From: Ureibacillus massiliensis 4400831 = CIP 108448 = CCUG 49529
GTDB taxonomy: Bacteria; Bacillota; Bacilli; Bacillales_A; Planococcaceae
Direction: 5' to 3'
Assembly (NCBI RefSeq): GCF_000772965.1
Contig: NZ_JPVQ01000016.1
Location: 1 to 64,000 of the forward strand
DNA: 64,000 bases
Shown here: positions 13,695 to 47,588 of the stretch, one piece after another
Layout of the letters: each line of letters opens with the position of its first letter
Numbering within the stretch: position 1 is the first letter of the stretch
The notes under the pieces: generated by a model
Seen by the model: only the letters and a program-made list of their open reading frames with translations
What the model was told of the DNA's origin: nothing
The model's database searches: none
Position numbers and translations under genes: made by a program

Positions 13695-13778
13695 GACGAA
13701 AAGATTTCACATTAATATAATAGCAATAACATTTAAAGTAAGTTAAAATGGTACATATAATAGAGGAGGTTAGCAACA

Positions 13779-29984: not shown

Positions 29985-30024
29985 AACCTTCCTAGAAAAA
30001 GTTCTAATGAAGGTCTTATTTTCC
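29982..30024. terminator. Bidirectional terminator between ctaG-like and ligD
   Basis: ATAAAACCTTC...TAGAA and TTCTA...GAAGGTCTTAT form an imperfect stem across the convergent stop codons, with A- and T-rich flanks. Confidence 0.6.
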
Positions 30025-31872
30025 CTTACGCTCTTCTACTAATTGTTTTAAATTCTGAAGTACCTTACTAAAATTTTGTTTTTCTCCGACTTCTCTAAAT
30101 TCTCGGAATGGGTCCCCGTTAATTCTCAATCTCTCAATTACCTGTGGTAGAGAAAATAAAGCTGGTGTAAGGTTTTCATTTATTTCCTCCCAGTTCAGTG
30201 GTGTGGCAATTAAGCCTTGTTCATTCCCTCTTGGTGAATAAGGGGCTATAATTGTTTTCCCATAGGCATGTTGAATGAAATCAAGATAAAGCTTTTGACC
30301 GCGATTCTTTTTCAAGCGCTCCATTGTAAACCAATTAGGCTCTTGTTCACATAAAAATGTACATACAAATTCCGTGAAAATACGAGTATCCTCGTAGGTA
30401 AAGGCATTTTTAGGCAAAGGGATATACACCTGCAATCCTTTTCCGCCTGATGTTTTTACAAAGGAAACTAATCCAAATTGGTCAAAAATTGACTTCATCA
30501 TTACTGCTGCTTCGATAGCTAAAGAAAATTCATTCACTGATGGTGGATCTAGGTCGAAAACAATTTCAGTTGGATAATGTGTATCCACGGTTTGAAAAGG
30601 GATATGAAATTCGATAACAACCTGATTTCCTAACCATAGTAACGTCTCAATATTATTACACAAAATGTAATTTATATCTTCCTCCATTTTTGTAGCAATA
30701 AATGAGGGTTTGTAATCAGGTGCATTTTTTTGATAAAAGCTTTCACCAGGAATACCGTGGGGATAACGGATTGCTGTTAAATAACGATTTTTAAGAAAAG
30801 GTAAAAAATATGGTGACACATGTTGTAAATAATACAAATAATCGTCCTTATCAATATTTAACTTTGGCCAAATCGGTTTATCAGGATGTGTAACTTGTAC
30901 CTTTTCAGGTATTGGATTTAATTGTCTAATCATTGTTTTCCAATTAACGAATTCTGGTTGCAAATCAAATCGAAATTTTGAAAAACGAGGTTCTCTCAAC
31001 TTTTTACCGTCAAAATCAATACATGCAATGTCTACACAAATGGAAGGGTCCATTTCCCAAGTTTCAGATGTTACTTGTCGACCATTTCTTTTAAAAAAAG
31101 TAACAAGTGTTTGAAATTCTTGTTCTGAAAATCCATGCTTAAAAACGGTGATTTCAATTAGTTGATCTTCTCTATAAATAGATCCGTGGAAATAGCCATT
31201 TTCTTGATCATATTTGGTCAAAATGACAGTTACATAAAACCAATTTTTCACTTTTAACCATTGAGTTGTTCGTACACTACTGTCCCACGTACTAGATTGA
31301 TGCTTTGCAACTACTCCTTCTCCACCATGAATTTTTACTGTATCAATTGCTATTTGATCTTTTTGAAATACATCTATTAATTGAATATGGCCTTTTTTTA
31401 CGTAATCAATTGTTGTCGAAAAACCAATTGCTTCAAAAAGAGATTTTAACAATGCCTTTCGCTCATTTAGGACATAATCAGATATATCTAATCCTTTATA
31501 TCGGATAAGGTCGAATACGATAAGATTACAAGGAAATTTGTTTGCACTATTTAGAATCACATCTTCATTTCGCATTCTTCCACGAGTTTGAACAACTGAA
31601 AAATTACTTTTATAGTTATTTATAAGGTAGCAAATTTCCCCATCTAACGTTAAAGGAAGGAAAGGATAAATTTTGTCCTTTGCCTTTTCAGAAAATGTTA
31701 CGATCTCGGGATAGAAATTTGTTAATTCTTTTTCATTTCGACTCATTATTTGAATCCCAGTTTTATCCCAGTGAATGATGCAACGAAACCCATCATATTT
31801 CACTTCATATAGCCAATCTTTTGTTGAAGGTAATTCTTCTGATGCGGTTAAAAGCATTGGTTTCATTATCAT
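30016..31872 (-). CDS. ligD: Non-homologous end-joining DNA ligase LigD (ligase + polymerase)
   Basis: The 618-residue protein matches B. subtilis YkoU (LigD) in domain order. An N-terminal ATP-dependent ligase has the nucleotidyl-lysine K25 in 'EVKYDGFR' and 'LDGEICYL', 'GGEGVVAKH' and 'QWLKVKNWFY' motifs. A C-terminal archaeo-eukaryotic primase-type polymerase begins at 'THPDKPIWPKLNIDKDDYL' (about residue 330), with catalytic 'VFDLDPP'. There is no 3'-phosphoesterase domain. It repairs double-strand breaks with Ku, especially in spores. It is divergent from ku, 94 bp away. Confidence 0.94.
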   Translation of the reverse strand: MIMKPMLLTASEELPSTKDWLYEVKYDGFRCIIHWDKTGIQIMSRNEKELTNFYPEIVTFSEKAKDKIYPFLPLTLDGEICYLINNYKSNFSVVQTRGRMRNEDVILNSANKFPCNLIVFDLIRYKGLDISDYVLNERKALLKSLFEAIGFSTTIDYVKKGHIQLIDVFQKDQIAIDTVKIHGGEGVVAKHQSSTWDSSVRTTQWLKVKNWFYVTVILTKYDQENGYFHGSIYREDQLIEITVFKHGFSEQEFQTLVTFFKRNGRQVTSETWEMDPSICVDIACIDFDGKKLREPRFSKFRFDLQPEFVNWKTMIRQLNPIPEKVQVTHPDKPIWPKLNIDKDDYLYYLQHVSPYFLPFLKNRYLTAIRYPHGIPGESFYQKNAPDYKPSFIATKMEEDINYILCNNIETLLWLGNQVVIEFHIPFQTVDTHYPTEIVFDLDPPSVNEFSLAIEAAVMMKSIFDQFGLVSFVKTSGGKGLQVYIPLPKNAFTYEDTRIFTEFVCTFLCEQEPNWFTMERLKKNRGQKLYLDFIQHAYGKTIIAPYSPRGNEQGLIATPLNWEEINENLTPALFSLPQVIERLRINGDPFREFREVGEKQNFSKVLQNLKQLVEERKGK

Positions 31873-31966
31873 AAACCTCTTTTTTCTTTAGTTTTAGGAT
31901 AAATGTAGTAGTTATACATAGAACAATGCAGAGAACAACATAATAAGAAAAAAGGCGGTGATGAAG

Positions 31967-32791
31967 GTGCATACAGTTTGGAAAGGTAGTATTAGTTTTG
32001 GTCTTGTGAATATTCCGGTGAAATTACATACTGCAACGGAAAATAAAGATATTAAATTGCGCCAATTGCATAAAGAATGTAATAGTCCGATCAACTATAA
32101 AAAAGTATGTCCTGTATGTGATAAGGAAGTAGGAAATGAAGATATCGTAAAGGCTTATGAATATTCTAAAAATAAATTCGTTGTACTTGATGACGAAGAG
32201 TTAGAAAACTTGAAGAAAGAAAGTGAAGATAAAGCAGTCGAAATTATTGAATTTGTTCAATTAGATGAAATTGATCCAATATATTTCGAACGTAGTTACT
32301 TTCTAGCACCAGATAGTGGTGGTGGTAAAGCATATGCATTACTAAGAAGTGCATTAAAAGAATCTGGAAAAATTGGTGTTGCCAAAATTACAATTCGTTC
32401 AAAGGAACAGCTAGCAATCGTTCGAGTTTATGGTGACACATTGTTAATGGAGACAATTCATTTTCCAGATGAAGTAAGAAAGGCTGATGAAGTTCCTAAT
32501 ATACCGAGTGAAGATAAGATAGCTGATAAAGAACTGGATACAGCTTTAATGTTAATTGAACAATTAACAGAAAAATTTGATCCTGAAAAGTATAACGATG
32601 ATTATCGAACAGCGCTACTTGAACTTATCGAGAAGAAAAAATCTGGTGAGGTTGTCGTAACAGCGACTGAGAAGGAAACGAAAGTACCTTCAGATATGAC
32701 AGATTTAATGGCGGCTTTACAAGCATCACTAGACAAAACAAAGAAACCTACAGTACGAAAACGAAAAACACCAGCAAAGAAAAAAGCGTAA
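31967..32791 (+). CDS. ku: NHEJ DNA-end-binding protein Ku
   Basis: The 274-residue bacterial Ku opens 'HTVWKGSISFGLVNIPVKLHTATE' and has 'LHKECNSPINYKKVCPVCDKEV' and the dimerisation core. The Lys-rich C-terminus ('RKRKTPAKKKA') fits DNA or LigD contact. It encircles DNA ends and recruits LigD. GTG 31967 lies just after GGCGGTGAT, a strong anti-SD match, and gives the MHTVWKG start of the family; ATG 31961 and GTG 31958 are alternatives. Confidence 0.95.
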   Translation: MHTVWKGSISFGLVNIPVKLHTATENKDIKLRQLHKECNSPINYKKVCPVCDKEVGNEDIVKAYEYSKNKFVVLDDEELENLKKESEDKAVEIIEFVQLDEIDPIYFERSYFLAPDSGGGKAYALLRSALKESGKIGVAKITIRSKEQLAIVRVYGDTLLMETIHFPDEVRKADEVPNIPSEDKIADKELDTALMLIEQLTEKFDPEKYNDDYRTALLELIEKKKSGEVVVTATEKETKVPSDMTDLMAALQASLDKTKKPTVRKRKTPAKKKA

Positions 32792-32833: not shown

Positions 32834-33092
32834 TCGACATCACATGACATGGAATGATACTTAGTTAATCAGTCAAATTCGAATAGTATTGCCGTAAAAA
32901 CAGGAGTTATCAATGGATTCTAAAAGCGTCAACTACTTATCTGAAATTTTATAATATTATAACAATCTTAACATTAGATTAATATCATCTCTTTTTGGCA
33001 TTGAAATTGTTAGATAATTGAGAATAAAATAAAAACAATAAAGATTTCAAAATTTGAACTCTTGATTTCACAAAATGAAATTATTAAATGGT

Positions 33093-33176: not shown

Positions 33177-34142
33177 TTGGCCGAAAGCGTATTAGAAGTA
33201 AAGGATTTAAAACTTGGAATCCGGGACGGGAAACGGCAAATTCCAATTGTAAACGGAGTAACCTTCGATTTGAAAAAGGGCGAAACGTTGGGGATTGTTG
33301 GTGAGTCTGGCTGCGGAAAAAGTTTGACGTCATTATCGTTGATGGGTTTACTGCCACCAGGTATCGAGTATCAAAATGGAAACATTGAAATAAGAAATCA
33401 AAACATGGTGGGTGTCAAAGATAAGGTTTGGAGATCTGTTCGAGGTAAGAAGGTATCAATGATTTTCCAAGAACCGATGACCTCCTTAAATCCCGTTTTT
33501 ACAATCGGGGATCAAATTGTCGAAATGATTCTAAGCCATAACAAGATGAAAAAAGCAGAAGCAAAAAGTCATGCAATACATATGTTGAAAACCCTTGGAA
33601 TTCCGAGAGCTGAGGAAGTGTTTAATGAATATCCTCACCAATTATCAGGAGGTATGAGACAAAGGGTTATGATTGCAATTGCACTATCCTGCAACCCCGA
33701 AATTTTAATAGCAGACGAGCCTACAACTGCATTAGACGTAACAATTCAAGCGCAAATACTTGAACTAATGAAAAAGCTTCAGAAGCAAATGGATATGTCG
33801 ATTGTACTTATTACTCACGATTTAGGCGTTGTAGCTGAAATGTGCGACAGAGTCATTGTAATGTATGCTGGTGAAGTTGTAGAGGAATCAACAGTAGTAG
33901 AGTTATTTGATAATCCGAAACACCCATATACGAAAGGGTTACTTGCTTCACTACCAAAAATAGAAGAACAAAAAGAGTTTTTATCATCTATCAAAGGAGT
34001 TGTACCAACTGCTGCAAATATGCCATCTGGCTGCCGATTTGCACCACGTTGTCAATTTAGAACAGAAAAATGTGATGAAAAACCATTGCTAAAAATGATT
34101 AATGATCAGTCTCAAGTGCAGTGCTGGCTTTACTCTGATTAA
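33177..34142 (+). CDS. oppD: Oligopeptide ABC transporter ATPase (OppD/DppD type)
   Basis: The 321-residue ATPase has Walker A 'GESGCGKS', the signature '[15 protein letters not shown]', Walker B '[12 protein letters not shown]' and switch His ('[10 protein letters not shown]'). The OppD/DppD C-terminal motif with Cys residues ('[20 protein letters not shown]') is present. TTG 33177 follows AAGGGAGTGA. It starts an 11-gene same-strand unit through pxpA at 45370, and pairs with the OppF-type ATPase next to it. Confidence 0.92.
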
Positions 34143-34158
34143 AGATGGAGGTGATCTT

Positions 34159-35151
34159 GTGGAGGCAGTAGCAGTAAAAGAAAAAGAAACATTATTGAAG
34201 GTTGAAAATCTCTCAAAACATTTTATCGTCAAAAAGGGATTTGGAAAAAACAACGTTCAAAGAATTAAAGCAGTCGATAACGTATCCTTTGAAGTGAAAA
34301 AAGGCGAAATTTTCGGGATAGTTGGAGAATCAGGGTGTGGTAAAAGTACTACTGGGCGTACTATTCTTCGATTATTAGAACCTACCTCAGGAAAGATAGA
34401 GTTTGAGGGTAAAGATATTTCAACTCTTAGCGGCAAAGAGATGCGCCAAGCAAGAAGAGATATGCAAATCGTCTTCCAAGACCCATTTGCCTCATTAAAT
34501 CCGCGGATGAAGATTTTTAACGTAATCGAAGAACCTTTAATCAACTTCGGAGTAAAGGATGCTAACGAAAGAAAAAAGAGAGTATATGAAGTTGCCGAAC
34601 AAGTTGGACTTACAATAGCACAGTTAGAACGTTTGCCACACGAATTTTCAGGTGGACAGAGACAAAGAATTGGCATTGCGAGAGCGCTTGTTTCACGTCC
34701 AAAGTTAATTATTGCAGATGAACCAGTATCGGCACTTGATGTTTCCATTCAATCACAAGTATTGAATCTAATGAGAAAACTGCAAAAAGAAATGGACCTA
34801 ACATACATTTTTATCTCACATGACTTAAATGTTGTGCATCATTTCTGCGATCGAATTGGTGTAATGTATTTGGGGAAAATGGTTGAAATAGCTGATAAGG
34901 ATGAACTATTTAAAAATCCATTACATCCTTATTCAAAAGCTTTATTCTCTGCTTTACCAAAATCACACCCTTTAGAGAAGAAAGAGAGAATTGTGCTCCA
35001 AGGGGATGTACCTAGTCCAGGTAATCCTCCAAGTGGTTGTATGTTCCACACGAGATGCTTTGCTTGTATGGAACAATGTAAGACCGAAATTCCAGTTTTG
35101 ACAGCTAGAAATTCTCAACATAAAGTATCTTGTCATCTTTATCCTGAATGA
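34159..35151 (+). CDS. oppF: Oligopeptide ABC transporter ATPase (OppF/DppF type)
   Basis: The 330-residue ATPase has Walker A 'GESGCGKST', 'FQDPFASLNPRMK', signature 'FSGGQRQRIGIARAL', Walker B 'LIIADEPVSALD' and the C-terminal 'SGCMFHTRCFACMEQCKTEIP' Cys region. The GTG at 34159 lies 7 nt after a perfect GGAGG within GGAGGTGATC. The readable frame extends back into oppD, but that extension is not expected to be translated. Confidence 0.92.
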   Translation: MEAVAVKEKETLLKVENLSKHFIVKKGFGKNNVQRIKAVDNVSFEVKKGEIFGIVGESGCGKSTTGRTILRLLEPTSGKIEFEGKDISTLSGKEMRQARRDMQIVFQDPFASLNPRMKIFNVIEEPLINFGVKDANERKKRVYEVAEQVGLTIAQLERLPHEFSGGQRQRIGIARALVSRPKLIIADEPVSALDVSIQSQVLNLMRKLQKEMDLTYIFISHDLNVVHHFCDRIGVMYLGKMVEIADKDELFKNPLHPYSKALFSALPKSHPLEKKERIVLQGDVPSPGNPPSGCMFHTRCFACMEQCKTEIPVLTARNSQHKVSCHLYPE

Positions 35152-35166
35152 GAAAAGAGGTAACCG

Positions 35167-35949
35167 ATGAGTAAGACGTTAGAAAAGGGAATTCAGTTAT
35201 TTGAGCTTTTTACGAGTGATAAACCTATTTGGTCTATGGATGAAATTTCGGAGTATACAAAAATACCAAAACCTACAGTTTATAGACTATTAAAAATATT
35301 CGTAGATAATGAGTTTTTACAAAAAACTACCGCCGAAAATGGTGAAGGATACCGTTTTTCCTTAGGATTGAAGTTTTTAGAACTGGGAAGTGTTGTTCTT
35401 TCGACATTCGACATTCGAAAAATTGCTTTACCACCTATGAGAGAATTACAACAAAAGTTTAATGAGGCAGTACAGCTTTCTTATAAAGATGGTGAAGAGG
35501 GACTATATATCGAAAAAGTCGAAAGTACAAAGCCAGTTCGATTATACACACGTGTTGGAAGAAAGGCGCCTCTCTATGCTGGGGCATGTATGAGAACAAT
35601 TTTAGCATTCCAGCCACAAGAGGAAATTGACTATATTATTTCTAAAAATTTAAATCAAATCGCAAGTGGAACTCCACAATCGAAAGACAATGTATTACAG
35701 TTGCTTGTTCAATGTAGAACAGAAGGTTATTCATATAGTATTTCTGAATTAGAAGAAGGAACCTTTTCTATTGCAGTTCCAATTTTTAATCATGAGGGAC
35801 AAGTAAAATACTCTTTAAGTATTGCAGGAATCGCTACTTCATTTTCTCAACAGCAAATAAAAGAATTTGTTACTGAGCTTTGGAATGTTGCAGCAGAAAT
35901 TTCAGTAGGTATCGGTTATAAAGAACCATATCCTTATGGGCTTTTATAA
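35167..35949 (+). CDS. IclR-family transcriptional regulator (KipR-like)
   Basis: The 260-residue protein has an N-terminal winged helix ('KGIQLFELFTSDKPIWSMDEISEYTKIPKPTVYRLLKIFVD') and a GAF-like effector domain ('SYKDGEEGLYIEKVES...RVGRKAPLYAGACMRTILAF'). It is embedded in the operon between oppF and the binding-protein gene. In B. subtilis the 5-oxoprolinase genes (kip operon) are controlled by the IclR-type KipR, so the same regulator family accompanies pxp genes here. Pyroglutamate or a peptide is a possible effector, by inference. Confidence 0.87.
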   Translation: MSKTLEKGIQLFELFTSDKPIWSMDEISEYTKIPKPTVYRLLKIFVDNEFLQKTTAENGEGYRFSLGLKFLELGSVVLSTFDIRKIALPPMRELQQKFNEAVQLSYKDGEEGLYIEKVESTKPVRLYTRVGRKAPLYAGACMRTILAFQPQEEIDYIISKNLNQIASGTPQSKDNVLQLLVQCRTEGYSYSISELEEGTFSIAVPIFNHEGQVKYSLSIAGIATSFSQQQIKEFVTELWNVAAEISVGIGYKEPYPYGLL

Positions 35950-35982
35950 ATAACAACAGATAAAACAGTAGGGGGATATAAA

Positions 35983-37560
35983 ATGAAAAAGATGAAGCAT
36001 TGGCTATTACTTTGTGTTGTATCAGTAGTGTTAGTATTAACTGCATGCTCTGGCGGTGATTCAAGTTCACAAGACGAAAGTGCAGAAGCAAACAAAGAAA
36101 ACCCGGCAGCAAATAGAGGAAACGAAATCGTTATTGGTATTCCTAGTGAACCACAAAACTGGGACCCAATTGATACATTTTTATTAGATTGGAGTACTGT
36201 AGCTACTTCTGTTTTTGAAGGCTTAATTGATCGAGATGTTGACTTAGAGTTACAACCAGGATTAGCAGAATCTTGGGAGTACCTTGATGACAAAACACTT
36301 CAGTTCAAACTTCGTCAAGGTGTAACTTTCCATAACGGTGAGCCGTTCAATGCTGACGCTGTTAAATTTACATTTGACCGTTTATTAGGTGAACAAGGAC
36401 AAGCCGGTCCACAGTATTCGAATTACAATTCAATTGATTCAGTTGAAGTTAATGATGAGTATACTGTTACTTTCCACTTAAACACTGTAGATCCAGTATT
36501 ATTAACAAAATTAGCTAGTTATGGTGCGGTAATCGTTCCACCTCAATATATTCAAGAAAATGGTGAGGAACATTTTGATAATAACCCTGTAGGTACAGGT
36601 CCTTTCAAAATGACTGGTTATAAAAGAGATCAAGAAATCGTGTTAGAGAAAAACGAGGACTATTGGAAAGAAGGATTACCGAAATTAGACAAGGTTACGT
36701 TTAAAGTAATCCCAGAAGCATCAACTCGTTTAGCTGAACTACAAACAGGTACGATCGACATTATGAAAAGAGTTGAAGTAGCTCAAGTAGAAACAGTTAA
36801 TTCAACTAATTATTTAAACTTATTGGAAGTACCAACACCCACTGCGTTTGCCTTACGTTTTGATACTGCAGTTAAACCTTTAGATGATGTAAGAGTGCGT
36901 CAAGCAATTAACTATGCAATTGACCGTGACGCTTTAATCGAAGAAATTTTAAGTGGTTATGGAGTTCCGATTGCAACGTTCCAAAGTGAATTATCATTTG
37001 GGTATAATCCAGATCTAAAACCATATCCATATGATCCAGAAAAAGCAAAACAATTACTTGAAGAAGCGGGTGTGGAAGAAGGTACAACAATTGATGTAGT
37101 CATTCCTGGTAATGATGGTAACTTCAAAGAAATTACACAAGCTGTTGCCTTTTACTTAGAACAAGTCGGTATTAAATTAAATATCCAAACAGCAGATAGT
37201 ACAACATTAAACTCAGATTTAATTCCAAATGGTAATGCTGGTGGAATGTATCGTCAAGGTTGGGGTGGATGGACTTTAGACTTTGATAACACAGCTTACT
37301 TAATGTACCATTCAGGAGAATTCTGGAACCCATCATTTATGGATGAAGATGTAGAACGTTTGTTAGAAGAACAAAGAAATTCAGTTGACCAAGAAGAGCG
37401 TGCAGCGATCTTTACAGAATTAACGGAAAAACTATATGAATTAGCTCCAGAGGTTAACTTATACGCGGCTGTGGATTTATATGCTGCAAATGAACGTGTT
37501 GTGGATTTCCAACCACCACATGATGACCGTCTACGTTTAGAAGAGGTTAGTGTGCAATAA
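35983..37560 (+). CDS. Peptide-binding lipoprotein (SBP_bac_5, DppA/OppA type)
   Basis: The 525-residue lipoprotein has a signal with lipobox 'LVLTAC' and a Ser-rich linker. The mature chain has 'LQPGLAESWEYLDDKTLQFKLRQGVTFHNGEPFNADAVKFTFDRLL', the hallmark of family 5 solute-binding proteins, and 'VRQAINYAIDRDALI'. It captures oligopeptides for OppBC-DF. It is probably specific for pyroglutamyl or similar small peptides judging by the downstream enzymes, which is inference. A hairpin follows the stop codon. Confidence 0.92.
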   Translation: MKKMKHWLLLCVVSVVLVLTACSGGDSSSQDESAEANKENPAANRGNEIVIGIPSEPQNWDPIDTFLLDWSTVATSVFEGLIDRDVDLELQPGLAESWEYLDDKTLQFKLRQGVTFHNGEPFNADAVKFTFDRLLGEQGQAGPQYSNYNSIDSVEVNDEYTVTFHLNTVDPVLLTKLASYGAVIVPPQYIQENGEEHFDNNPVGTGPFKMTGYKRDQEIVLEKNEDYWKEGLPKLDKVTFKVIPEASTRLAELQTGTIDIMKRVEVAQVETVNSTNYLNLLEVPTPTAFALRFDTAVKPLDDVRVRQAINYAIDRDALIEEILSGYGVPIATFQSELSFGYNPDLKPYPYDPEKAKQLLEEAGVEEGTTIDVVIPGNDGNFKEITQAVAFYLEQVGIKLNIQTADSTTLNSDLIPNGNAGGMYRQGWGGWTLDFDNTAYLMYHSGEFWNPSFMDEDVERLLEEQRNSVDQEERAAIFTELTEKLYELAPEVNLYAAVDLYAANERVVDFQPPHDDRLRLEEVSVQ

Positions 37561-37576
37561 AGTTTAGTAAAAACTG

Positions 37577-37609
37577 GAGATAGTATGGTTTTCCATACTA
37601 TCTCTTTTA
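37577..37609 (+). terminator. Intercistronic attenuating hairpin after the binding-protein gene
   Basis: GAGATAGTATGG and CCATACTATCTC are perfect arms with a TTTT loop, followed by TTTTAT. Because oppB continues 27 nt on without another obvious promoter, it is likely a partial terminator that sets high binding protein against low permease levels. Confidence 0.7.
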
Positions 37610-37635
37610 TTCCATAAAGTAAGGATGTGAAAAGC

Positions 37636-38565
37636 TTGTTATCTTACATAATTAGAAGAATTTTTCATGCCGTGTTAGTAGTTTTCGCTATTTCAATTAT
37701 AGTTTTCTTTTCCATTCGCTTAACTGGGGATCCAGTAGCAGTCATGTTCTCAGCGGGTGAACCAACGCAGGAAGCAATCGATCAATTAACAGAAGAACTA
37801 GGATTAGATAAGCCGTTATATGTTCAATATGGTGTATTTATGAAAGGCCTTTTAACATTTGATTTAGGTGAATCATTTAGAAGTGGTATTCCCGTTATGA
37901 CACTTATATTAGAAAGGGCATGGCCGACATTTGTCTTAGCTTTAGGTGGTATCTTTGTTGCATTATTAATTGCATTCCCTGTTGGAATTATCTCAGCAGT
38001 AAAAAGAGATACATTTTTAGACTTTGGTGGAAGAGTATTTTCTTTAATAGGAATTTCATTTCCGAACTTCTGGCTAGGTTTTATGCTTATTCTTATCTTC
38101 GCAGTTAATCTGCAATGGTTACCTGCATCTGGTTTCGAAGGCTTTTCATATCTGATTCTACCTTCTATCACACTAGGTTTAATCCTATCAGGTGTATTAG
38201 CTAGATTAGTAAGATCCTCCATGTTAGAAGTATTAAATCAGCAATATATTCGAACGGCTAAATCTAAGGGAATTAGTAAATGGAAGGTTATTTTAAAGCA
38301 TGCATTTAGAAATGCTTTATTACCGACAGTAACATTTATTGGTTTGCAATTCGGAGCGCTTTTAGGTGGTACGGTTATAGTAGAGCAAGTATTTTCTTGG
38401 CCAGGTATTGGTCGATTAATCATCGATGCAATTAATCAACGTGACTATCCAGTTGTTCAAGGTGGAATTGTATTTTTAGCACTTGTCATGGTAGTCGTGA
38501 ACTTATTAGTCGATTTAAGTTATTCACTAATTGACCCTCGTATTAAAGCAGGAAAGGGGAAATAG
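37636..38565 (+). CDS. oppB: Peptide ABC transporter permease (DppB/OppB type)
   Basis: The 309-residue permease has six membrane segments. It starts 'LSYIIRRIFHAVLVVFAISIIVF' and has 'GLDKPLYVQYGVFMKGLLTFDLGESFRSG', and the EAA loop 'RTAKSKGISKWKVILKHAFRNALLP' that contacts the ATPases. TTG 37636 is about 10 nt after AAGGA; GTG 37627 is too close to it. Confidence 0.92.
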   Translation: MLSYIIRRIFHAVLVVFAISIIVFFSIRLTGDPVAVMFSAGEPTQEAIDQLTEELGLDKPLYVQYGVFMKGLLTFDLGESFRSGIPVMTLILERAWPTFVLALGGIFVALLIAFPVGIISAVKRDTFLDFGGRVFSLIGISFPNFWLGFMLILIFAVNLQWLPASGFEGFSYLILPSITLGLILSGVLARLVRSSMLEVLNQQYIRTAKSKGISKWKVILKHAFRNALLPTVTFIGLQFGALLGGTVIVEQVFSWPGIGRLIIDAINQRDYPVVQGGIVFLALVMVVVNLLVDLSYSLIDPRIKAGKGK

Positions 38566-38568
38566 TAA

Positions 38569-39468
38569 ATGGAACAAACAGTAAAGGTTACAAATGCACC
38601 AAAGAAAGCTTCATTTGTTTCAAGGTTCTTTAAGTTCATAAGAACAAATCCAATTGGAGTATTTGGAATGTTGTTAGTTGCGTTAAGCGTTATTTGTGCT
38701 GTTTTCGCTCCATGGATTGCACCATATGACCCAACAGAAGCGAGTTTAACAAATCGACTAGACGCACCATCATTTTTAGATGCTACTGGGGAATCTACCT
38801 ATCTTTTAGGTGGCGACCAACTAGGTAGGGATCTATTAAGCAGAATTATATACGGAGCCCAAATTTCTTTAATAGTAGGGATTGCTGGTGTATTCATTTC
38901 ATTAGTCATTGGAACAATTATGGGATTAATTTCAGGATATTTTGGTAAATGGTTAGATGATTTAATCATGCGAGTTGCCGATATCCAGTTGGCATTCCCA
39001 TTTATCTTATTCGCTATTGTTATTATGAGTGTTCTTGGTACTGGTATATGGAAAATTGTTATTATTTTAGGACTCACATATTGGGTTGGATTTGCGAGAT
39101 TAATAAGGGGACAAGTGATTTCCCTTAAAGAACAAGAATTTGTTCAGGCTGCTAAAGCAATAGGCGGATCCCATAGAAGAATTATTTTTAAACATATATT
39201 ACCGAACGTACTATCATCAATATTAGTTTTAAGTACAACGTATATTGCGGAATTTATTTTACTTGAAGCTTCACTTACATTCCTTGGTTTAGGGGTAGAT
39301 CCTACAATTCCATCATGGGGTGGTATGTTAGCAGATAGTCGAAACTACATTACAACAGCTTGGTGGACGACTGTATTCCCAGGGTTTGCAATTATGCTAA
39401 CAGTATTAGGATTTAATTTATTAGGAGATTGGCTAAGAGATCGATTTGATCCAAACTTAAAAGCGTAG
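38569..39468 (+). CDS. oppC: Peptide ABC transporter permease (DppC/OppC type)
   Basis: The 299-residue permease has six membrane segments, the N-terminal OppC domain 'RFFKFIRTNPIGVFGMLLVA', 'GGDQLGRDLLSRIIYGAQISL' and the EAA loop 'QAAKAIGGSHRRIIFKHILPN'. It starts 3 nt after oppB and completes the OppBC heterodimer. Confidence 0.93.
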   Translation: MEQTVKVTNAPKKASFVSRFFKFIRTNPIGVFGMLLVALSVICAVFAPWIAPYDPTEASLTNRLDAPSFLDATGESTYLLGGDQLGRDLLSRIIYGAQISLIVGIAGVFISLVIGTIMGLISGYFGKWLDDLIMRVADIQLAFPFILFAIVIMSVLGTGIWKIVIILGLTYWVGFARLIRGQVISLKEQEFVQAAKAIGGSHRRIIFKHILPNVLSSILVLSTTYIAEFILLEASLTFLGLGVDPTIPSWGGMLADSRNYITTAWWTTVFPGFAIMLTVLGFNLLGDWLRDRFDPNLKA

Positions 39469-39479
39469 GTGATAAAGTG

Positions 39480-42299
39480 ATGGAAGATTTATGGACTTTG
39501 GATGGATTATTAGTAGACAAAAATGATGATGGTATACCAGATGGCGTTTCGTTATATATTGACCTCCCAGAAAATCTTTATCCTATAGGGCTTTTTGATT
39601 TTCTAGCTAGGGCGGGCTTAGAAACAACAGCTTTATCTTTTAATTTTTTTGAGAAGCACAATCAAAAGGTCACGTTAACATTCGAAAAAAGTAATCATTC
39701 TGAAATAACTTTTGAATCAGAAATTCTATCGATTTATTACCAATCTGAAGAAGATTTGTCGAATCAACTGCGTCATATTAGTCAGCTAGGCTTAAAAATG
39801 AGTGATTCAGAAGAATCAAAAGAAAGACCAATGATTAGGGGAGTAAGTGATATTTGGACTCTAGCAGGTTTTGGTCAATATCAAGAAGCAAGTCCAATAC
39901 ATCCCTTAAGTGTGAATATTGACAGCAAACTGGATTGGAACAAATCGTTATTTCTAGCGGTATGTCAGTTGGTTGCCCGGTTAGGATTAGTGAGTACAAC
40001 GATAAAGTTCCCACTAACTAATAATGAAATGGCAGATATTCAATTTGTCATAGAAGAAAATGGTCAGAGCTCTATTAAAGTACTAGAAGAAAATATTATA
40101 AAAGTTAATGGTTCTAAAGAAGAATGTGCACAGCTAATAGATTGGTTATCAAATGAAAAGGCCTGGAAGGAAGATGGGGTTTTAGGTAGCTGGGAAAGAC
40201 CATTCCTTTATGCACATTTAACAAATGAAAATGTCATTTTAATCGAAGAAAATTGGCAAGATCAGTCGGAAGTCGATATTGCGGAAGAACATATTAAAAT
40301 GCTTTCAGAAGAAGAAAAAGAAAACGTTGTTATTTATTTATCAGAGCCATTATCTAATAGAACCTGTCTAAAAGAAAAATGGGAAAAGAACTATGGAATT
40401 CAAAATTTAGTGGTTCGGTCTTCATTTAAGCCTGCCTTCCATTGGTTAAAAGAAGAAATCATTGAAAAAATACCTCAAAATACGAAGCAAGTTGTTATTA
40501 AAGTAAAAGAACATGACGTTGAAGGAAGTCTAGAATTACCAATTCGATGGATTCAAGAAATCTATCCCATTGATTTAATTATTGAAAAAGCAACATCTAT
40601 ACATTCGGATAATGTCATTTTTGAACTAAATAAAGACCAGCAACATACATATGAAGTATTTGCTGTACTAAATAATGAAGAATGTGTGTTTATTGATTAT
40701 TTAGATGTTGTATATAGCAAAGTTCCATATGTAGATGGTGAAAAATTTGCAACGCCAACAACCAGCTGTATCGTTTGTGGCGAAGAGCAAAATAAAGTGA
40801 TTACAATACCAACAGATAGAGAGAGATTTTATAACTATTATTTAGAAGCTTTTTTACCAAAATTAGTAGAAACTATTGGTGATATTAAGGATGGAATGGG
40901 TTATACGGAACCATTATTTAGTGGACTCCAAGTAGAAGTTTGGATGAGTGAAGAAGAAGAAAAGCTGGGTGTAGATGAAGAAAGAACATCATCACTAGAA
41001 GCACTTTATGAAGATATATACTTTAATACGTTAGATTATTTTGACCATCTCGGTAATAAGCAAGCGGGTAAACCATATACAGCACTTGGTGCAGTAATAC
41101 CTGTCATGCATGTTGAGCAAGGAACTAAACCTAGAGCAAACGTAAAAGTAACCAAATGGAATAACCATCGTAAGAAGGAAGTTCAAACAAAAGAGCTATT
41201 CTTTAATGATGGTAAACCATCAAAAGTACAGATTGCAGTCAACAACGAAACATCTATGTATGATGTTGATGAGTTACAGCTAGAGTGGGAAAAGATAAAA
41301 AAAGCCGAGAGTAATATTGGAGAAAATTTATTTATCGATTATTCGTTTAGAGGATTACCGATTGATTCTATTGAAAAATATTTACCTACAGGTGAGCAAT
41401 TTGAGTCACCTATAAAAATGACATTATTTAAACCAACAGTGTTAATCGAAGCAATGCATCATCCAAATGAAGTATCAAGCAATCCAGCAGTTCTTAAATT
41501 ATTGGAGGAGCTTGATTCAAACACGAATTTACTAAAACAGTTGAATGTTGTAACAATCCCGATGGCAAATCCAGATGGATATAGTCTATTAATGCGACTA
41601 ACGAAGGAACATCCAGAATGGAAACATCACGCTGCAAGATACAATTCTCTTGGTTTTGAGTATGCACATACAAGATATTTAGATACTATTTTTGGCGAAT
41701 CAAATGTCTTACCAGAATTAATGAAGCGCTGGGCACCAGATGTTGTCGTTGATAACCATGGTATACCGGGACATGAATGGATTCAACCATTTGCAGGTTA
41801 TAATAGTCCTCCTAGATTCCCAGTTTCATATTTTATCCCAAGTGCAAAAATTTACGGACTCGGAAGATATTCCTTCGATACACAGACGGAACTAGCTCGA
41901 AATAATCTAGATAAAATTGTAAGTGATATGAATGAAATATATCGTTCTACGAATATACCGAAACAAAATGAGTATTGGAGAAATCGTTTTACAAAATATG
42001 GCCATCAATGGTTACCGAATGTGTTTCCTTTGGAAGTTCACGGCAATATAAACTTCTATAAATCTATAGAAGTTACACCTACATATTCATCTGTTAGTAT
42101 ATTACGTTATCCTAATTGGGTAGCCGCCGATATTATCTCGGAAGCAGCAGATGAAGTAGTATATGGTGATGTGCTAGAAGAATGTATTGATGCGCAATAT
42201 TTATTTAATTTGTCAATTATTCAAACGGTTGCCAAAACAAAGGTCAAAGTGAACAGAAACGGAAATACGATTTATAGAGAAAGACCATTAAGAATATAG
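39480..42299 (+). CDS. Large M14-type metallopeptidase with duplicated N-terminal module
   Basis: The 939-residue protein has no signal peptide, so it is probably cytoplasmic. The zinc site of M14 carboxypeptidases is recognisable: H661-P-N-E664, 'ANPDGY' at 696-701 and H760 in 'DNHGIPGHEW'. The N-terminus has two copies of one module, opening at DLWTLDGL (3-10) and DIWTLAGF (124-131). A Ca-loop-like 'DKNDDGIPDG' occurs near residues 14-23, and a CIVC pair at 430-433. The middle region is unassigned. It lies between oppC and pcp, so it probably trims imported peptides. ATG 39480 is 6 nt after AGGTGAT. Confidence 0.75.
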   Translation: MEDLWTLDGLLVDKNDDGIPDGVSLYIDLPENLYPIGLFDFLARAGLETTALSFNFFEKHNQKVTLTFEKSNHSEITFESEILSIYYQSEEDLSNQLRHISQLGLKMSDSEESKERPMIRGVSDIWTLAGFGQYQEASPIHPLSVNIDSKLDWNKSLFLAVCQLVARLGLVSTTIKFPLTNNEMADIQFVIEENGQSSIKVLEENIIKVNGSKEECAQLIDWLSNEKAWKEDGVLGSWERPFLYAHLTNENVILIEENWQDQSEVDIAEEHIKMLSEEEKENVVIYLSEPLSNRTCLKEKWEKNYGIQNLVVRSSFKPAFHWLKEEIIEKIPQNTKQVVIKVKEHDVEGSLELPIRWIQEIYPIDLIIEKATSIHSDNVIFELNKDQQHTYEVFAVLNNEECVFIDYLDVVYSKVPYVDGEKFATPTTSCIVCGEEQNKVITIPTDRERFYNYYLEAFLPKLVETIGDIKDGMGYTEPLFSGLQVEVWMSEEEEKLGVDEERTSSLEALYEDIYFNTLDYFDHLGNKQAGKPYTALGAVIPVMHVEQGTKPRANVKVTKWNNHRKKEVQTKELFFNDGKPSKVQIAVNNETSMYDVDELQLEWEKIKKAESNIGENLFIDYSFRGLPIDSIEKYLPTGEQFESPIKMTLFKPTVLIEAMHHPNEVSSNPAVLKLLEELDSNTNLLKQLNVVTIPMANPDGYSLLMRLTKEHPEWKHHAARYNSLGFEYAHTRYLDTIFGESNVLPELMKRWAPDVVVDNHGIPGHEWIQPFAGYNSPPRFPVSYFIPSAKIYGLGRYSFDTQTELARNNLDKIVSDMNEIYRSTNIPKQNEYWRNRFTKYGHQWLPNVFPLEVHGNINFYKSIEVTPTYSSVSILRYPNWVAADIISEAADEVVYGDVLEECIDAQYLFNLSIIQTVAKTKVKVNRNGNTIYRERPLRI

Positions 42300-42317
42300 C
42301 CTAAAGAGGTGAACAAG

Positions 42318-42932
42318 ATGAAAAAAATATTGTTAACTGGCTTTGAACCATTTTTAGATTATAAAGTAAATCCAACGATGAAAATTGTAGAAGAATTAAA
42401 TGGAAATAGCATAAATGGTCATGAAATTGTAGGCTGGATACTACCTGTGGATTTTGAACAGTCAGCAAAACTTTTACTAGAGAAGATAGATGAAGTAAAC
42501 CCAGATGTTGTTGTTTCATTGGGGCTTGCTGGTGGAAGATATAAAATCACACCTGAAAGAATCGCTGTAAATGTAAAAGATGGCGATGCAGATAACAACA
42601 ACCATGCACCGCAAGATGAATTCATTGAAGAAGCTGGGGATACAGCTTATATTCCTACGATTCCTGTTCGCAAAATAACAAATCGCTTAATTGAAGAAGG
42701 TTACCCTGCTGAAATTTCTAACACAGCTGGTACTTATTTATGTAACAATGTCATGTATAGTGCACTTCATCATGCAAAGGTAAATAAATTAAGTTATAAA
42801 TCTGGTTTTATCCATATTCCAGCATCACACGAATTAGCTATTCAACACGGGAAAATACCTAGCTGGTCCCATTCAGATTTGATGCGTGCTGTTGAAATTA
42901 GTCTTGAAGTGATTACTGATGAGGTGAACTAG
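42318..42932 (+). CDS. pcp: Pyroglutamyl-peptidase I (pyrrolidone-carboxylate peptidase)
   Basis: The 204-residue C15 cysteine peptidase removes N-terminal pyroglutamate from peptides. The triad is visible: Glu80 in 'PERIAVNV', Cys142 in 'NTAGTYLCNNVMY' and His166 in 'FIHIPASHE'. The N-terminus 'ILLTGFEPFLDYKVNP' is diagnostic. ATG 42318 follows AGAGGTGA; GTG 42309 is inside the site. Its product is the substrate of the PxpABC enzyme encoded next. Confidence 0.96.
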   Translation: MKKILLTGFEPFLDYKVNPTMKIVEELNGNSINGHEIVGWILPVDFEQSAKLLLEKIDEVNPDVVVSLGLAGGRYKITPERIAVNVKDGDADNNNHAPQDEFIEEAGDTAYIPTIPVRKITNRLIEEGYPAEISNTAGTYLCNNVMYSALHHAKVNKLSYKSGFIHIPASHELAIQHGKIPSWSHSDLMRAVEISLEVITDEVN

Positions 42933-42933
42933 T

Positions 42934-43665
42934 TTGTTCCCATCCGTTATTATTCAAGACAAGAAAATCGCTTCATTTATTTTTGGACAAGAGATAGATG
43001 AAGAAACTTTTCAGCATGTAGAAGCTTTTGATCAGTTTATAAATATTAAATATAAAAAACTTATAGTGGAAACCGTTCCTACTTATCATATGGTAACGGT
43101 TTTCTTTAACAAAGAAATCGCTCAAGATCAATCATTACTTACAGACATTATTTACAAATGGAAGAAATTTGAAATTCAGTTGCAATCGTCTAAAAGTAGA
43201 AGGGTAACAATACCTGTATGCTATGATGCACTATTTGCTTTAGACCTCGAAAGAGTAGCGGAAGAATTGAATCTAACGACTGAACAAGTTATTAAAAAGC
43301 ATAGTGAACCAACATATAAAGTCTATTTAATCGGGTTTTTACCGGGTTTTCCGTACTTAGGTGGTTTAAATAAAGAACTATTTGTTCCTAGATTAGATAA
43401 ACCGAGGAAATCCGTTGAAAAAGGAAGTGTGGGAATTGGCGGAAGACAGACAGGTATTTACCCCGTAACGTCACCAGGTGGTTGGAACATTATCGGAAAA
43501 ACCCCTATCGACCTATTTGATGTGAATCGAAACCCTGCTTTTTTACTCCAACCAGGAGATCAAATTACATTTAAAAGTATATCAATCGATGATTTCTATA
43601 ATGTTAAAGAAAATGTTGAAAAAAACCCTCAATATATATTGAATTTGATAGATACAAAAATTTAG
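42934..43665 (+). CDS. pxpB: 5-oxoprolinase subunit PxpB (KipI family)
   Basis: The 243-residue protein matches the KipI/PxpB family: 'YLIGFLPGFPYLGGL', 'PRKSVEKGSVGIGGRQTGIYPVTSPGGWNIIGKTP' and 'LQPGDQITF'. With PxpC and PxpA it hydrolyses pyroglutamate to glutamate using ATP. B. subtilis KipI was first described as a KinA inhibitor, but the pxpABC linkage supports the enzyme role. TTG 42934 is preceded by GAGGTGA at 42921-42927 and follows the pcp stop by 1 nt. Confidence 0.93.
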   Translation: MFPSVIIQDKKIASFIFGQEIDEETFQHVEAFDQFINIKYKKLIVETVPTYHMVTVFFNKEIAQDQSLLTDIIYKWKKFEIQLQSSKSRRVTIPVCYDALFALDLERVAEELNLTTEQVIKKHSEPTYKVYLIGFLPGFPYLGGLNKELFVPRLDKPRKSVEKGSVGIGGRQTGIYPVTSPGGWNIIGKTPIDLFDVNRNPAFLLQPGDQITFKSISIDDFYNVKENVEKNPQYILNLIDTKI

Positions 43666-43695
43666 CAAATGGTTGGCTAGAAAGTGGAGATAAAC

Positions 43696-44604
43696 ATGAA
43701 ACAATTGCTTAAAGTGGTCAAGAAAGGAGTTTTTAGTTCACTTCAGGATAATGGTCGATATCGATATAGAAGATTTGGAATCCCAACAGCAGGCCCTATG
43801 GATCAATTATCTTTCGAGTTGGGTAAAAAAATTTTAGGTAATAAGGAAAATTCTACAGCTTTAGAGATTTTTTACGGTGGAGTAAGTTTTTTGTCCTTAG
43901 CAAAACACGAATATGTATTAGTTGGAGCGGACATGAAGGCAACGGTAAACGGAAAGCCAGTTGAACCTTGGAAAACCTTCATTTTGAATGTTGACGACCT
44001 TTTAGAATTAAATGTGTCTACTGAAGGATCAATCGCGTATCTAATGGCGCTTGGAGGTTTTAATACAAACTCTGTTCTAAATAGTACCTCAACATATTTG
44101 AAAGCAAATTTAGGTACAGTTATTAAAAAGGATACGATTCTCTATGGAAAAAGTGACCTACCAGATGTTTTAAAATATAGAACAGGTTTATATAAATCAT
44201 TTATTCCTAATATATCAGATTGCGTAAAAGTAAGAGTTACCCCTAGTTATCATCTCTCGTATTTTATAGAAGAAGATGTAGACCATTTCTTTCAAAGTGA
44301 ATATCAGTTAACGAATGGAGACCGTATGGGGTACTACCTTCAAGGACCTTTAATGAGGATGAAAGTAAAAAAAGAATTACTGTCTGAACCAACAATGTTT
44401 GGCACAATTCAAATACCACCCAATGGACAACCAATTATTTTAATGGCTGATGCTCAAACGGTAGGAGGATATCCAACTGTCGGAAAAGTGGTAGAAGAGG
44501 ATTTATGGAAAGTGGCACAATTGCGTTACGGTAATCGAATTTCATTTGAATACCAGCCTATAAGAAATACTACTGATTCAGTAAGATTCGAAAAGGATGA
44601 ATAA
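43696..44604 (+). CDS. pxpC: 5-oxoprolinase subunit PxpC (KipA family)
   Basis: The 302-residue biotin-dependent-carboxyltransferase-like protein starts 'KVVKKGVFSSLQDNGRYRYRRFGIPTAGPMDQ', the KipA/YbgK signature, and later has 'NPP-like NGQPIILMADAQTVGGYPTVGKV'. It forms the PxpBC part of 5-oxoprolinase. ATG 43696 lies 6 nt after GTGGAGA. It overlaps none of pxpB but nearly abuts pxpA. Confidence 0.93.
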   Translation: MKQLLKVVKKGVFSSLQDNGRYRYRRFGIPTAGPMDQLSFELGKKILGNKENSTALEIFYGGVSFLSLAKHEYVLVGADMKATVNGKPVEPWKTFILNVDDLLELNVSTEGSIAYLMALGGFNTNSVLNSTSTYLKANLGTVIKKDTILYGKSDLPDVLKYRTGLYKSFIPNISDCVKVRVTPSYHLSYFIEEDVDHFFQSEYQLTNGDRMGYYLQGPLMRMKVKKELLSEPTMFGTIQIPPNGQPIILMADAQTVGGYPTVGKVVEEDLWKVAQLRYGNRISFEYQPIRNTTDSVRFEKDE

Positions 44605-44605
44605 A

Positions 44606-45370
44606 ATGGAAAATCAATTATATATTGACTTAAATAGTGATTTAGGTGAAAGTTTCGGTCATTACAAAATCGGTAATGATGAAGAAATCATGAAATATGT
44701 TTCATCTGTAAATATTGCGTGTGGATTTCATGCTGGTGATCCAACTACTATAAAAAACACTGTAAATAAAGCATTAGAAGCTGGTGTTGCCATTGGTGCT
44801 CACCCAGGATTTCCCGATTTACAAGGATTCGGTAGAAGAAATATGCATATTAATCCAGAGGAAATATACGATTTAACTTTATATCAAATAGGTGCATTGA
44901 ATGCTTTTGTTAAAGCGAGTGGAGGAAAGCTTCACCACGTTAAGCCACATGGAGCGCTTTATAACATGGCAGCAAAAGATGAACAATATTCAAAAGCAAT
45001 TGTTGAAGCTGTTTTAAATATAGATGAAGATTTAATTCTTTACGGCTTGTCAGGAAGTCAACTAACAGCAGTTGCAAAACGATATGGTTTAAGATGCGCA
45101 AATGAGGCGTTTGTTGATCGTACATATAATCGAAGTGGACAATTAACACCGAGGACGGAACTAAATTCATTAATTAAGACTGAAGAAGAGGCATTAAATC
45201 AGGTTTTAAAAATGATTCATGAGAAAAAAGTTATTGCCACAACTGGAGAAGAGGTATCGATAGAAGTCGATACATTATGTATTCACGGTGACGGCATAAA
45301 AGCAGTAGAATTTGCGCAAAAAGTAAATAATACATTAAAACAAAACAATATTATCATACAGGCATTATAA
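44606..45370 (+). CDS. pxpA: 5-oxoprolinase subunit PxpA (LamB/YcsF family)
   Basis: The 254-residue protein has the family opening 'IDLNSDLGESFGHYKIGNDEEIMKYVSSVNIACGFHAGDP' and 'GAHPGFPDLQGFGRR', 'HVKPHGALYNMA' and 'CIHGD'. PxpA provides the ring-opening step in concert with PxpBC, yielding glutamate. ATG 44606 lies 8 nt after AAAGGA. It is the last gene of the unit; a hairpin follows. Confidence 0.95.
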   Translation: MENQLYIDLNSDLGESFGHYKIGNDEEIMKYVSSVNIACGFHAGDPTTIKNTVNKALEAGVAIGAHPGFPDLQGFGRRNMHINPEEIYDLTLYQIGALNAFVKASGGKLHHVKPHGALYNMAAKDEQYSKAIVEAVLNIDEDLILYGLSGSQLTAVAKRYGLRCANEAFVDRTYNRSGQLTPRTELNSLIKTEEEALNQVLKMIHEKKVIATTGEEVSIEVDTLCIHGDGIKAVEFAQKVNNTLKQNNIIIQAL

Positions 45371-45389: not shown

Positions 45390-45423
45390 AACCCTTGCAA
45401 ATATAATGCAAGGGTTTAGTTTT
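45390..45423 (+). terminator. Terminator of the opp-pcp-pxp operon
   Basis: AACCCTTGCA (45390-45399) pairs with TGCAAGGGTT (45407-45416), followed by a modest T-rich tail. Confidence 0.7.
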
Positions 45424-45694: not shown

Positions 45695-46732
45695 CTAATC
45701 AAAGTCTAATTTATAATCCTCATCCTTAATCATTTTCAACTTCTTCTTGAATATATAAATGAAGAACAAGTTAAGAATAAGAGGTAGAATAAGGAACATG
45801 CTCAACATGATGGCTATATTTTGTGCAGTCCATCCACCTTCAGCTAGATTGATATAATTTAGTGGCCCTACAAGACCAGATAAACCAAAACCAGCACTGT
45901 ATGGAGTTCCTTGTACATTTAATAACCCTGCTAGAGCACCAAGTATAGCTGCCGAAATAAGCATTGGAAAGGCCATTTTAGGCTTCATAAAGAAGTTGCG
46001 CATTTGAATTTTTGGTGACCCTAACACATGAGCTAAAGCTGTTCCAAGAGCATTTGCTTTCATGCTAGCTAAGAATAGCCCCATACCAACGGCAACAATT
46101 CCAATATTTGCAGCACCTGAACCAATTCCAGATAACATAATAACAGTTGCAACCCCCACAGTTGATAGAGGAGACATAATTAATATGCCGAATATAACCG
46201 CTAGTAAAGCGCCCATTAATAATGGCTGTAAAGTTGTTAAGAAAGCAACTCCATCACCAATATAATTTGCTCCATTTTTTACATACGGTAAAATGGTATA
46301 ACCAATCATACCTGGAATTAATACTGAAAGCATTGGAATAAGTAAAATGGAGTAAGCTTTTAAACCTTCCCCTACAAGCTTTACAAACAATACAGCTAAG
46401 GCAGCTGTAATACCTGCATTTAAAGTTACACCGATGCCGTTCAATGTAAAAGCTCCTTCAGCCGTTTTAAGAATTGCACCACTACCAACGACAGTGGCAA
46501 TTCCAACACTAGCTGTTTGGATAGGTGTTAATTTAAACTGCATTCCAACTAACACCCCAGTTAAAACTGGTAACATACTCATGACAATAACAGTTGCATC
46601 AAGCAATCCTTGGAATACAGGTGCATGTGGAATAATCAATTTTAATATTTCACCAAGTAATGCATTCGGAATAAGTGCAACTACAATAGCAATACTCATA
46701 CCGTTTAATAGTTTACTAAAAAAGTCCTTCAT
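45695..46732 (-). CDS. PTS EIIC-like membrane protein (PTS_EIIC_2 family)
   Basis: The 345-residue protein has about ten membrane segments. 'MLPVLTGVLVGMQFKLTPIQTASVGIATVVGSGAI' and 'GDGVAFLTTLQPLLMGALLAVIFGILIMSPLSTVGVATVIMLSGIGSGAANIGI' resemble the PF13303 EIIC group. No EIIA or EIIB partner is nearby, so it is an orphan and the substrate and coupling are unknown. It is convergent with pxpA. Confidence 0.82.
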   Translation of the reverse strand: MKDFFSKLLNGMSIAIVVALIPNALLGEILKLIIPHAPVFQGLLDATVIVMSMLPVLTGVLVGMQFKLTPIQTASVGIATVVGSGAILKTAEGAFTLNGIGVTLNAGITAALAVLFVKLVGEGLKAYSILLIPMLSVLIPGMIGYTILPYVKNGANYIGDGVAFLTTLQPLLMGALLAVIFGILIMSPLSTVGVATVIMLSGIGSGAANIGIVAVGMGLFLASMKANALGTALAHVLGSPKIQMRNFFMKPKMAFPMLISAAILGALAGLLNVQGTPYSAGFGLSGLVGPLNYINLAEGGWTAQNIAIMLSMFLILPLILNLFFIYIFKKKLKMIKDEDYKLDFD

Positions 46733-47542: not shown

Positions 47543-47588
47543 AAAAATGTCCCCAAATAGTCTGCACTATTGGGACATTTCTTTTTTA
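47543..47588. terminator. Bidirectional terminator between the YusW-like gene and guaD
   Basis: AAATGTCCCCAAATAGT and ACTATTGGGACATTT form the stem with a short loop, flanked by T-rich sequence on + and A-rich on -. It lies between convergent stop codons. Confidence 0.8.

Follow-up and report, generated by a model that had tools for sequence, protein, structure and literature searches.

What substrate is served by an operon that combines a peptide importer, an M14-type peptidase and the enzymes of 5-oxoproline (pyroglutamate) use? This question is raised by a locus of Ureibacillus massiliensis at positions 33177-45370 (+ strand) of contig NZ_JPVQ01000016.1; the first 64,000 nucleotides of this contig are the stretch of DNA that was analysed as a whole (hereafter, the window). 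Pyroglutamyl peptides arise spontaneously and resist aminopeptidases; pyroglutamyl-peptidase (Pcp) releases pyroglutamate, and 5-oxoprolinase (PxpABC) converts pyroglutamate to glutamate with ATP. Based on gene content, conservation and an operator-like palindrome at the operon head, we conclude that the operon is a real, conserved variant of peptide/5-oxoproline scavenging. We favor, with a probability of about 0.55, the reading that it is an IclR-regulated unit for the uptake of pyroglutamylated peptides and their conversion to glutamate.

Gene content and conservation

The locus contains 11 + strand open reading frames (ORFs) in the order oppD-oppF-iclR-SBP-oppB-oppC-M14-pcp-pxpB-pxpC-pxpA, with ends as listed earlier (Table 1) and intergenic spacing of -41 to +66 nt; SBP denotes the gene for the substrate-binding protein. 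The initial annotation had described this same-strand gene set with an internal IclR gene, and the ORFs and family scans confirmed it. Family scans assigned OppD/OppF ATPases, an SBP_bac_5 protein, an OppB permease and an IclR regulator, and the identity of OppC is supported by NCBIfam matches, all below their cut-offs; a full Opp-type importer set is therefore present (SBP_bac_5 lipoprotein, two permeases and two ATPases). Across these six transporter and regulator genes, the sole NCBIfam match over its cut-off was that of OppB with Opp2B (365.7 vs 350); for the SBP, no NCBIfam model passed its cut-off. The N-terminus of the SBP carries a lipobox-like LTAC, as read from the sequence.

Pcp matched PF01470 (Peptidase_C15) with 205.8 bits over residues 5-203 of 207, and TIGR00504 with 203.3, over the cut-off of 201.75. 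Its alignment with solved Pcp enzymes spans nearly the full length; the Glu, Cys and His that we take to be the catalytic triad are all matched when it is aligned with 1iof. All three 5-oxoprolinase subunits occur together, with Pfam assigning PxpB to CT_C_D, PxpC to CT_A_B and PxpA to LamB_YcsF. The PxpB model and two PxpA subfamily models scored above NCBIfam cut-offs. PxpC fell below them (equivalog, 189.6 vs 500 bits; TIGR00724, a narrow miss at 227.7 vs 230.2), and its identity thus relies on Pfam and on position. A search of the genome identified one pcp match and one pxpA match, both inside the operon. Because these are the only ones detected, a housekeeping or detoxification role for the pxp genes is also likely, in agreement with the second role that had been suggested for them.

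Conservation was surveyed in 261 genomes of the order, including that of the window. A full-length M14 relative was identified in 25 genomes (window counted), with a fragment in 1 more and short peptidase-domain matches only in 8. At a threshold of our choosing (E ≤ 1e-120), SBP orthologues were present in 24 of the 261 genomes, every one of them among the 25 with a full-length M14 relative (Fisher, 4.6e-33; these genomes fall in 7 of 19 genera and hence are not independent). We used tblastn to read the neighborhoods of the 24 other M14 loci and of the fragment locus; pcp adjoins the M14 gene in 23/25 loci (window counted), and the full set of three pxp genes comes next in 19/25, arranged as B-A-C in five of these and as B-C-A in the others. 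The identical gene order across other genera places the arrangement well beyond chance, and chance assembly of the operon was rejected on this basis. A proposed check for conservation of the same gene set therefore had a positive outcome, as the block recurs, the SBP occurs with M14 in 24/25 genomes within the order, and both accompany pcp. At L056 (genus group g8), only the last 86 residues of the M14 protein remain, with pcp-pxpB-pxpC-pxpA after them, a pattern that would fit deletion of the importer half.

Among the matches listed in genomes without a full-length M14 relative, we hand-picked 20 pcp loci. Five of these contain a four-gene block of pcp, pxpB, pxpC and pxpA; in 15, the roughly 6 kb around pcp lack pxp genes, and nearby SBP or oppBC matches were absent from all 20. 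DUF979 was found in 3/261 genomes, adjoining pcp each time. All 12 M14 genomes tested for pxpA possess it; the gene lies away from the M14 locus in G104, G103, G077, G074 and G112, and in G077 and G104 it adjoins an Nramp-family gene, as in known pxpA-transporter clusters.

On a wider scale, a profile scan of the genome collection with the M14 alignment gave 361 M14 relatives among the candidates, and the best 77 loci were analysed, with locus types assigned by phmmer annotation and our own score thresholds. These comprise 44 loci of Opp type, 9 of DUF969/DUF979 type and 24 with neither transporter. A pcp match is nearby in 41/44 Opp-type loci (in L101, as a short frame only) and in 7/9 DUF969/DUF979-type loci; the remaining three and two carry pcp elsewhere in the genome, so that all 53 transporter loci come with a pcp match. 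Across the 24 loci with neither transporter, pcp is nearby in L088, elsewhere in the genome in 5 (in L107, in pieces only) and was not found in 17; L127 was not searched, and its record shares an isolate name with L125, whose genome has pcp. In a tree of 82 M14 proteins (quick method), the DUF label requires at least two changes on well-supported branches, a change being a gain or a loss. The operon is modular: in relatives, pcp-pxpBCA occurs as a free-standing block, and elsewhere M14 and pcp are paired with DUF969/DUF979.

Several individual loci in this survey differ in their makeup. At L101 (Tepidibacillus decaturensis, 13563-13892), the pcp match beside M14 is only a 109-residue open frame, which suggests a possible truncation or interruption of the gene. 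L095, L096 and L103 (Geomicrobium and a relative) have M14 beside another type of SBP, and no pcp was found in their genomes. L057 and L060, on Enterococcus plasmids, have a proB-like kinase gene (annotated as glutamate 5-kinase) first, and then, in this order, M14, DUF969, DUF979 and pcp.

The M14-like protein and the binding lipoprotein

The M14-like protein consists of two N-terminal repeats, an uncharacterised middle region and a C-terminal zinc peptidase domain. Its Peptidase_M14 match in Pfam is over the cut-off yet weak (E 5.6e-8, residues 609-707 only), and a PDB sequence search returned a weak match to carboxypeptidase B as the only relative. The zinc ligands His662, Glu665 and His761 (H-x2-E...H) are kept in 39/39 aligned rows. 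The two repeats are related to each other (hhalign, 97%, E 1e-10). In M14 carboxypeptidases, an Asn-Arg pair holds the C-terminal carboxylate; at the corresponding columns (730/731), this pair occurs in 0/39 rows, the commonest pair being Ala-His (11/39). In an hhalign profile alignment with four shorter M14 proteins from relatives (L028-L031; 97.7%, E 1.8e-12), EYAHT of the M14-like protein stands opposite their DLNRD. The canonical carboxylate-holding pair is thus missing from the aligned columns, and, judged by its sequence, the protein is not a canonical M14 carboxypeptidase. The earlier assignment as an M14-type peptidase holds for the zinc ligands and does not extend to a canonical carboxypeptidase. 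No signal peptide was visible on reading the sequence, suggesting that the protein is cytoplasmic. The M14 relatives of DUF type are longer, with open frames of 1,086-1,186 residues in 8/9 loci, the exception being L133, which is situated at the end of a contig.

The SBP carries a family motif (Table 1) whose core is common to 46/46 close SBPs, including that of the window and others from Deinococcus, Ensifer and Alicyclobacillus. In one register of the alignment with Escherichia coli DppA, Trp430 of the window SBP takes the position of Asp408, presumably the residue that holds the peptide alpha-amine, and Trp is found there in 46/46 SBPs. We withdrew the interpretation of Trp430 as a clear loss of the amine-binding Asp, as alignment with both DppA and OppA gave a second possible register. 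Compared with solved proteins, the SBP scored best with 5u4o, and GsiB, HbpA, DppA and AgaA scored alike; no single ligand is indicated. In two relatives, L035/L063 and L048/L078, an in-frame stop or a split seems to interrupt the SBP gene, with the rest of the operon matching; these interruptions could be decay or sequencing error.

Operon head and transcription signals

We searched the 200 nt before oppD in the 43 available operon heads for the palindrome TTTCA-N5-TGAAA or its mirror; one genome is represented in this set by two heads (L033 and L061), and L032 is nearly identical to the window. The palindrome was exact in 23/43 heads and present within one mismatch in 34/43. By comparison, random 200-bp windows of the same loci gave 0.6% exact matches and 6.4% within one mismatch, and shuffled heads gave 0.2% and 4.8%. 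In 8/9 palindrome-free heads, iclR lies before oppD, which suggests that the real operon head of those loci is elsewhere; the palindrome was not found within one mismatch upstream of iclR in 9 iclR-first loci, nor upstream of M14 in 11 DUF-type loci. Many loci have two overlapping sites that share a half, and the second, one-mismatch copy of the window (Table 1) is also found in L032 and L033/L061. The occurrence of the palindrome at operon heads suggests one regulated unit, and the IclR protein is predicted to bind it.

The possibility that the 17-base form ATTTCA-N5-TGAAAT is common across the genome was rejected, as it has five exact sites in the genome, the other four of which lie within ORFs (this genome-wide count covered the exact 17-base form). 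Four of the 11 DUF-type loci (L109, L115, L116 and L119) instead have TTCCG-N5-CGGAA-type palindromes at their heads, built in the same way as the operator of Opp-type loci.

Two hairpins were listed by the terminator-pattern scan (Table 1). The one after pxpA may end the operon. The one between SBP and oppB is possibly a partial terminator or mRNA stabiliser, and it may allow an excess of the lipoprotein or reduce read-through. The region has 9 terminator-pattern sites vs 7.4 in shuffles, and the pattern by itself is therefore weak proof. A promoter scan gave 35 matches, fewer than the shuffle mean of 58.2, and was therefore set aside.

Directly upstream of the operon lie ku and, divergently on the opposite strand, ligD (30016-32791), genes of non-homologous end joining. 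The first non-overlapping ORF downstream of pxpA (45695-46732) is on the opposite strand, and a guanine deaminase gene is located at 47586-48956 on the minus strand.

Table 1. Genes and candidate regulatory features of the locus, in window coordinates
Feature	Position	Strand	Basis
Palindrome, second copy, one mismatch, TTTCA-N5-TGAAC	33045..33059		Head comparison
Operator-like palindrome ATTTCA-N5-TGAAAT, predicted IclR site, upstream of oppD	33065..33081		Head comparison
oppD-like ATP-binding cassette (ABC) ATPase, TTG start	33177..34142	+	ORF, family scans
oppF-like ABC ATPase; listed start overlaps oppD, later start possible	34102..35151	+	ORF, family scans
IclR-family regulator	35167..35949	+	ORF, family scan
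SBP_bac_5 binding lipoprotein, family motif WGGWTLDFDNTA	35983..37560	+	ORF, family scan, alignments
Hairpin with T-rich tail, between SBP and oppB	37576..37605	+	Terminator-pattern scan
oppB-like permease	37627..38565	+	ORF, family scans
oppC-like permease	38569..39468	+	ORF, NCBIfam matches below cut-off
M14-like protein, 940 aa	39477..42299	+	ORF, Pfam, alignments
pcp, pyroglutamyl-peptidase I (C15)	42309..42932	+	Family scans, solved-enzyme alignment
pxpB, 5-oxoprolinase subunit	42934..43665	+	Family scans
pxpC, 5-oxoprolinase subunit	43684..44604	+	Family scans
pxpA, 5-oxoprolinase subunit	44597..45370	+	Family scans
Terminator-like hairpin after pxpA	45390..45416	+	Terminator-pattern scan

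Substrate, alternatives and known systems

In the pathway that we favor, the lipoprotein and OppBCDF would import a peptide blocked at its N-terminus by pyroglutamate. In the cytoplasm, the M14-like protein would make a cut that ordinary aminopeptidases cannot begin, probably at an internal or modified bond, as the canonical anchor for a C-terminal carboxylate is absent. Pcp would then free pyroglutamate, which PxpABC would open with ATP to give glutamate, and PxpABC would probably also clear pyroglutamate formed inside the cell. The IclR protein would control the unit by binding TTTCA-N5-TGAAA at the operon head. The initial annotation had claimed such a full route from extracellular blocked peptides; a conserved unit and encoded steps from imported peptide to glutamate were found, whereas strict pyroglutamyl specificity is challenged by distant M14 genes in genomes where a search gave no pcp, and evidence from the binding pocket is ambiguous.

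Several observations weigh against this pathway. No pcp was found in 17/27 searched genomes with M14 relatives, although many of these are metagenome-assembled genomes (MAGs), and L124, labelled Chloroflexota, has an M14 relative and an SBP with a near-copy of the motif in a genome where no pcp was found. The main indication that the importer and the M14-like protein may act on another substrate, or on a broader range, comes from such distant relatives. The co-occurrence of pcp with all 53 transporter loci is partly kinship, because almost all of these loci belong to Bacillota, in which many genomes have pcp; within the order, pcp is present in 196/261 genomes regardless, so that its mere presence is weak evidence and its position stronger. 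Within the 25 loci, four have opp-M14-pcp without adjacent pxp genes, L044 has opp-M14 with no pcp nearby (pxpA lies just upstream and pxpBC are divergent), and L039 has M14 alone without an operon, its genome being the 25th, without an SBP orthologue. In the OppA register of the alignment described above, Asp433 could keep the amine-binding role, which is ill-suited to a blocked peptide. The sole above-cut-off NCBIfam model of OppB, Opp2B, carries the NCBI name "nickel ABC transporter permease." Finally, the hairpin at 37576-37605 could terminate much of the transcription past the SBP gene.

The leading competing explanation is that the Opp-M14 half handles another modified peptide (e.g., C-terminally blocked, cross-linked or cell-wall derived), with housekeeping pcp-pxp genes joined to it since the products are rich in Gln/Glu. 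We consider this doubtful, although several findings are consistent with it: pcp-pxpBCA forms a block of its own in 5/20 chosen loci and, in the other 15, pcp has no pxp gene in the surrounding 6 kb or so; the M14 relative of L124 lies beside a similar SBP in a genome whose search gave no pcp; and a search of Deinococcus and Ensifer, limited to their plasmids and not extended to the chromosomes, was likewise negative. In addition, family scans of L121 (a Caldilineaceae MAG) identified M14 with AnmK, beta-lactamase-fold, GNAT and OCD genes, a set resembling wall recycling, and L128 (a bacterium MAG) has the same gene clusters. What argues against this explanation is that pcp accompanies 53/53 M14 loci with a transporter vs 6/23 judgeable others, a difference that kinship explains in part, and that M14 and pcp also occur together with the unrelated DUF969/DUF979 transporter, the label changing at least twice on the tree.

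Two further explanations place less weight on the M14-like protein. The importer could be an ordinary one that takes a broad range of oligopeptides or some other ligand (e.g., a nickel chelate), combined with a general cytoplasmic peptidase, with Pcp and Pxp finishing cyclised peptides; every transporter part is indeed from a common family, the SBP is above no NCBIfam cut-off, and OppB passes only that of the model named for nickel. This is improbable given that the M14-like protein lacks the carboxypeptidase Asn-Arg pair, that SBP orthologues at our threshold occur only in M14 genomes within the order, and that the SBP motif core is present in all 46 close SBPs, including some that belong to other phyla. 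The ligands of Opp-type binding proteins are mostly larger than free 5-oxoproline, which would require neither M14 nor Pcp; for these reasons, import of free 5-oxoproline by this system seems very improbable, even though no DUF979 was found in the window genome and its one Nramp-family match is on a contig other than that of pxpA. An observation in its favor is that the alternative partner, DUF969/DUF979, is reported in the accessible part of PMC12795558 as necessary for 5-oxoproline use in Campylobacter jejuni.

The pathway through blocked peptides could be generalized, although we advance this tentatively and would not expect all of it to hold: the M14-like protein may represent a non-carboxypeptidase M14 subfamily for N-terminally blocked peptides, the Trp-bearing SBP an ABC importer class for peptides without an amine, and M14-Pcp a transporter-independent core cassette that is served by an ABC importer or by DUF969/DUF979. 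The joining of an importer and M14 to Pcp/Pxp had been singled out as little described, and a search of the open-access literature is consistent with this, as titles and abstract openings contained no description of an importer-M14-pcp-pxp unit. The operon supplies a candidate operator and regulator, and it offers a way to the substrate of a group of M14 proteins with a chemistry that known members do not reveal. In the portions available, PMC13274462 and PMC12795558 concern uptake of free pyroglutamate; the unit described here offers a testable route for blocked peptides.

Known systems share parts of this unit. In Corynebacterium glutamicum, pxpTABC/PxpR comprises PxpABC, an NRAMP-like carrier for free 5-oxoproline and a GntR-type regulator, according to the accessible part of PMC13274462. 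This system and the pxp clusters of B. subtilis and C. difficile resemble the operon in having PxpABC with a linked uptake gene, and C. glutamicum also has a dedicated regulator (PMC13274462, same portion); it differs in its single NRAMP-like carrier and GntR regulator, whereas the operon has an ABC peptide importer, an M14-like protein, Pcp and an IclR-family gene. DUF969/DUF979, linked to 5-oxoproline use in C. jejuni, likewise have transporter genes adjoining pcp (PMC12795558, as far as available); the transporter is unrelated, and M14 is part of such clusters in, e.g., Enterococcus, Tissierella, Brevibacillus and Fictibacillus. Opp/Dpp peptide importers have the same five-gene ABC arrangement and families, whereas the SBP motif of the window is distinct and its orthologues, at the threshold above, are confined to M14 genomes within the order. 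Finally, the M14-like protein shares the His-x2-Glu...His zinc ligands and an NPDG segment with M14 zinc carboxypeptidases, and it differs from them in the replacement of Asn-Arg and in an N-terminal extension of about 600 residues that contains a tandem repeat.

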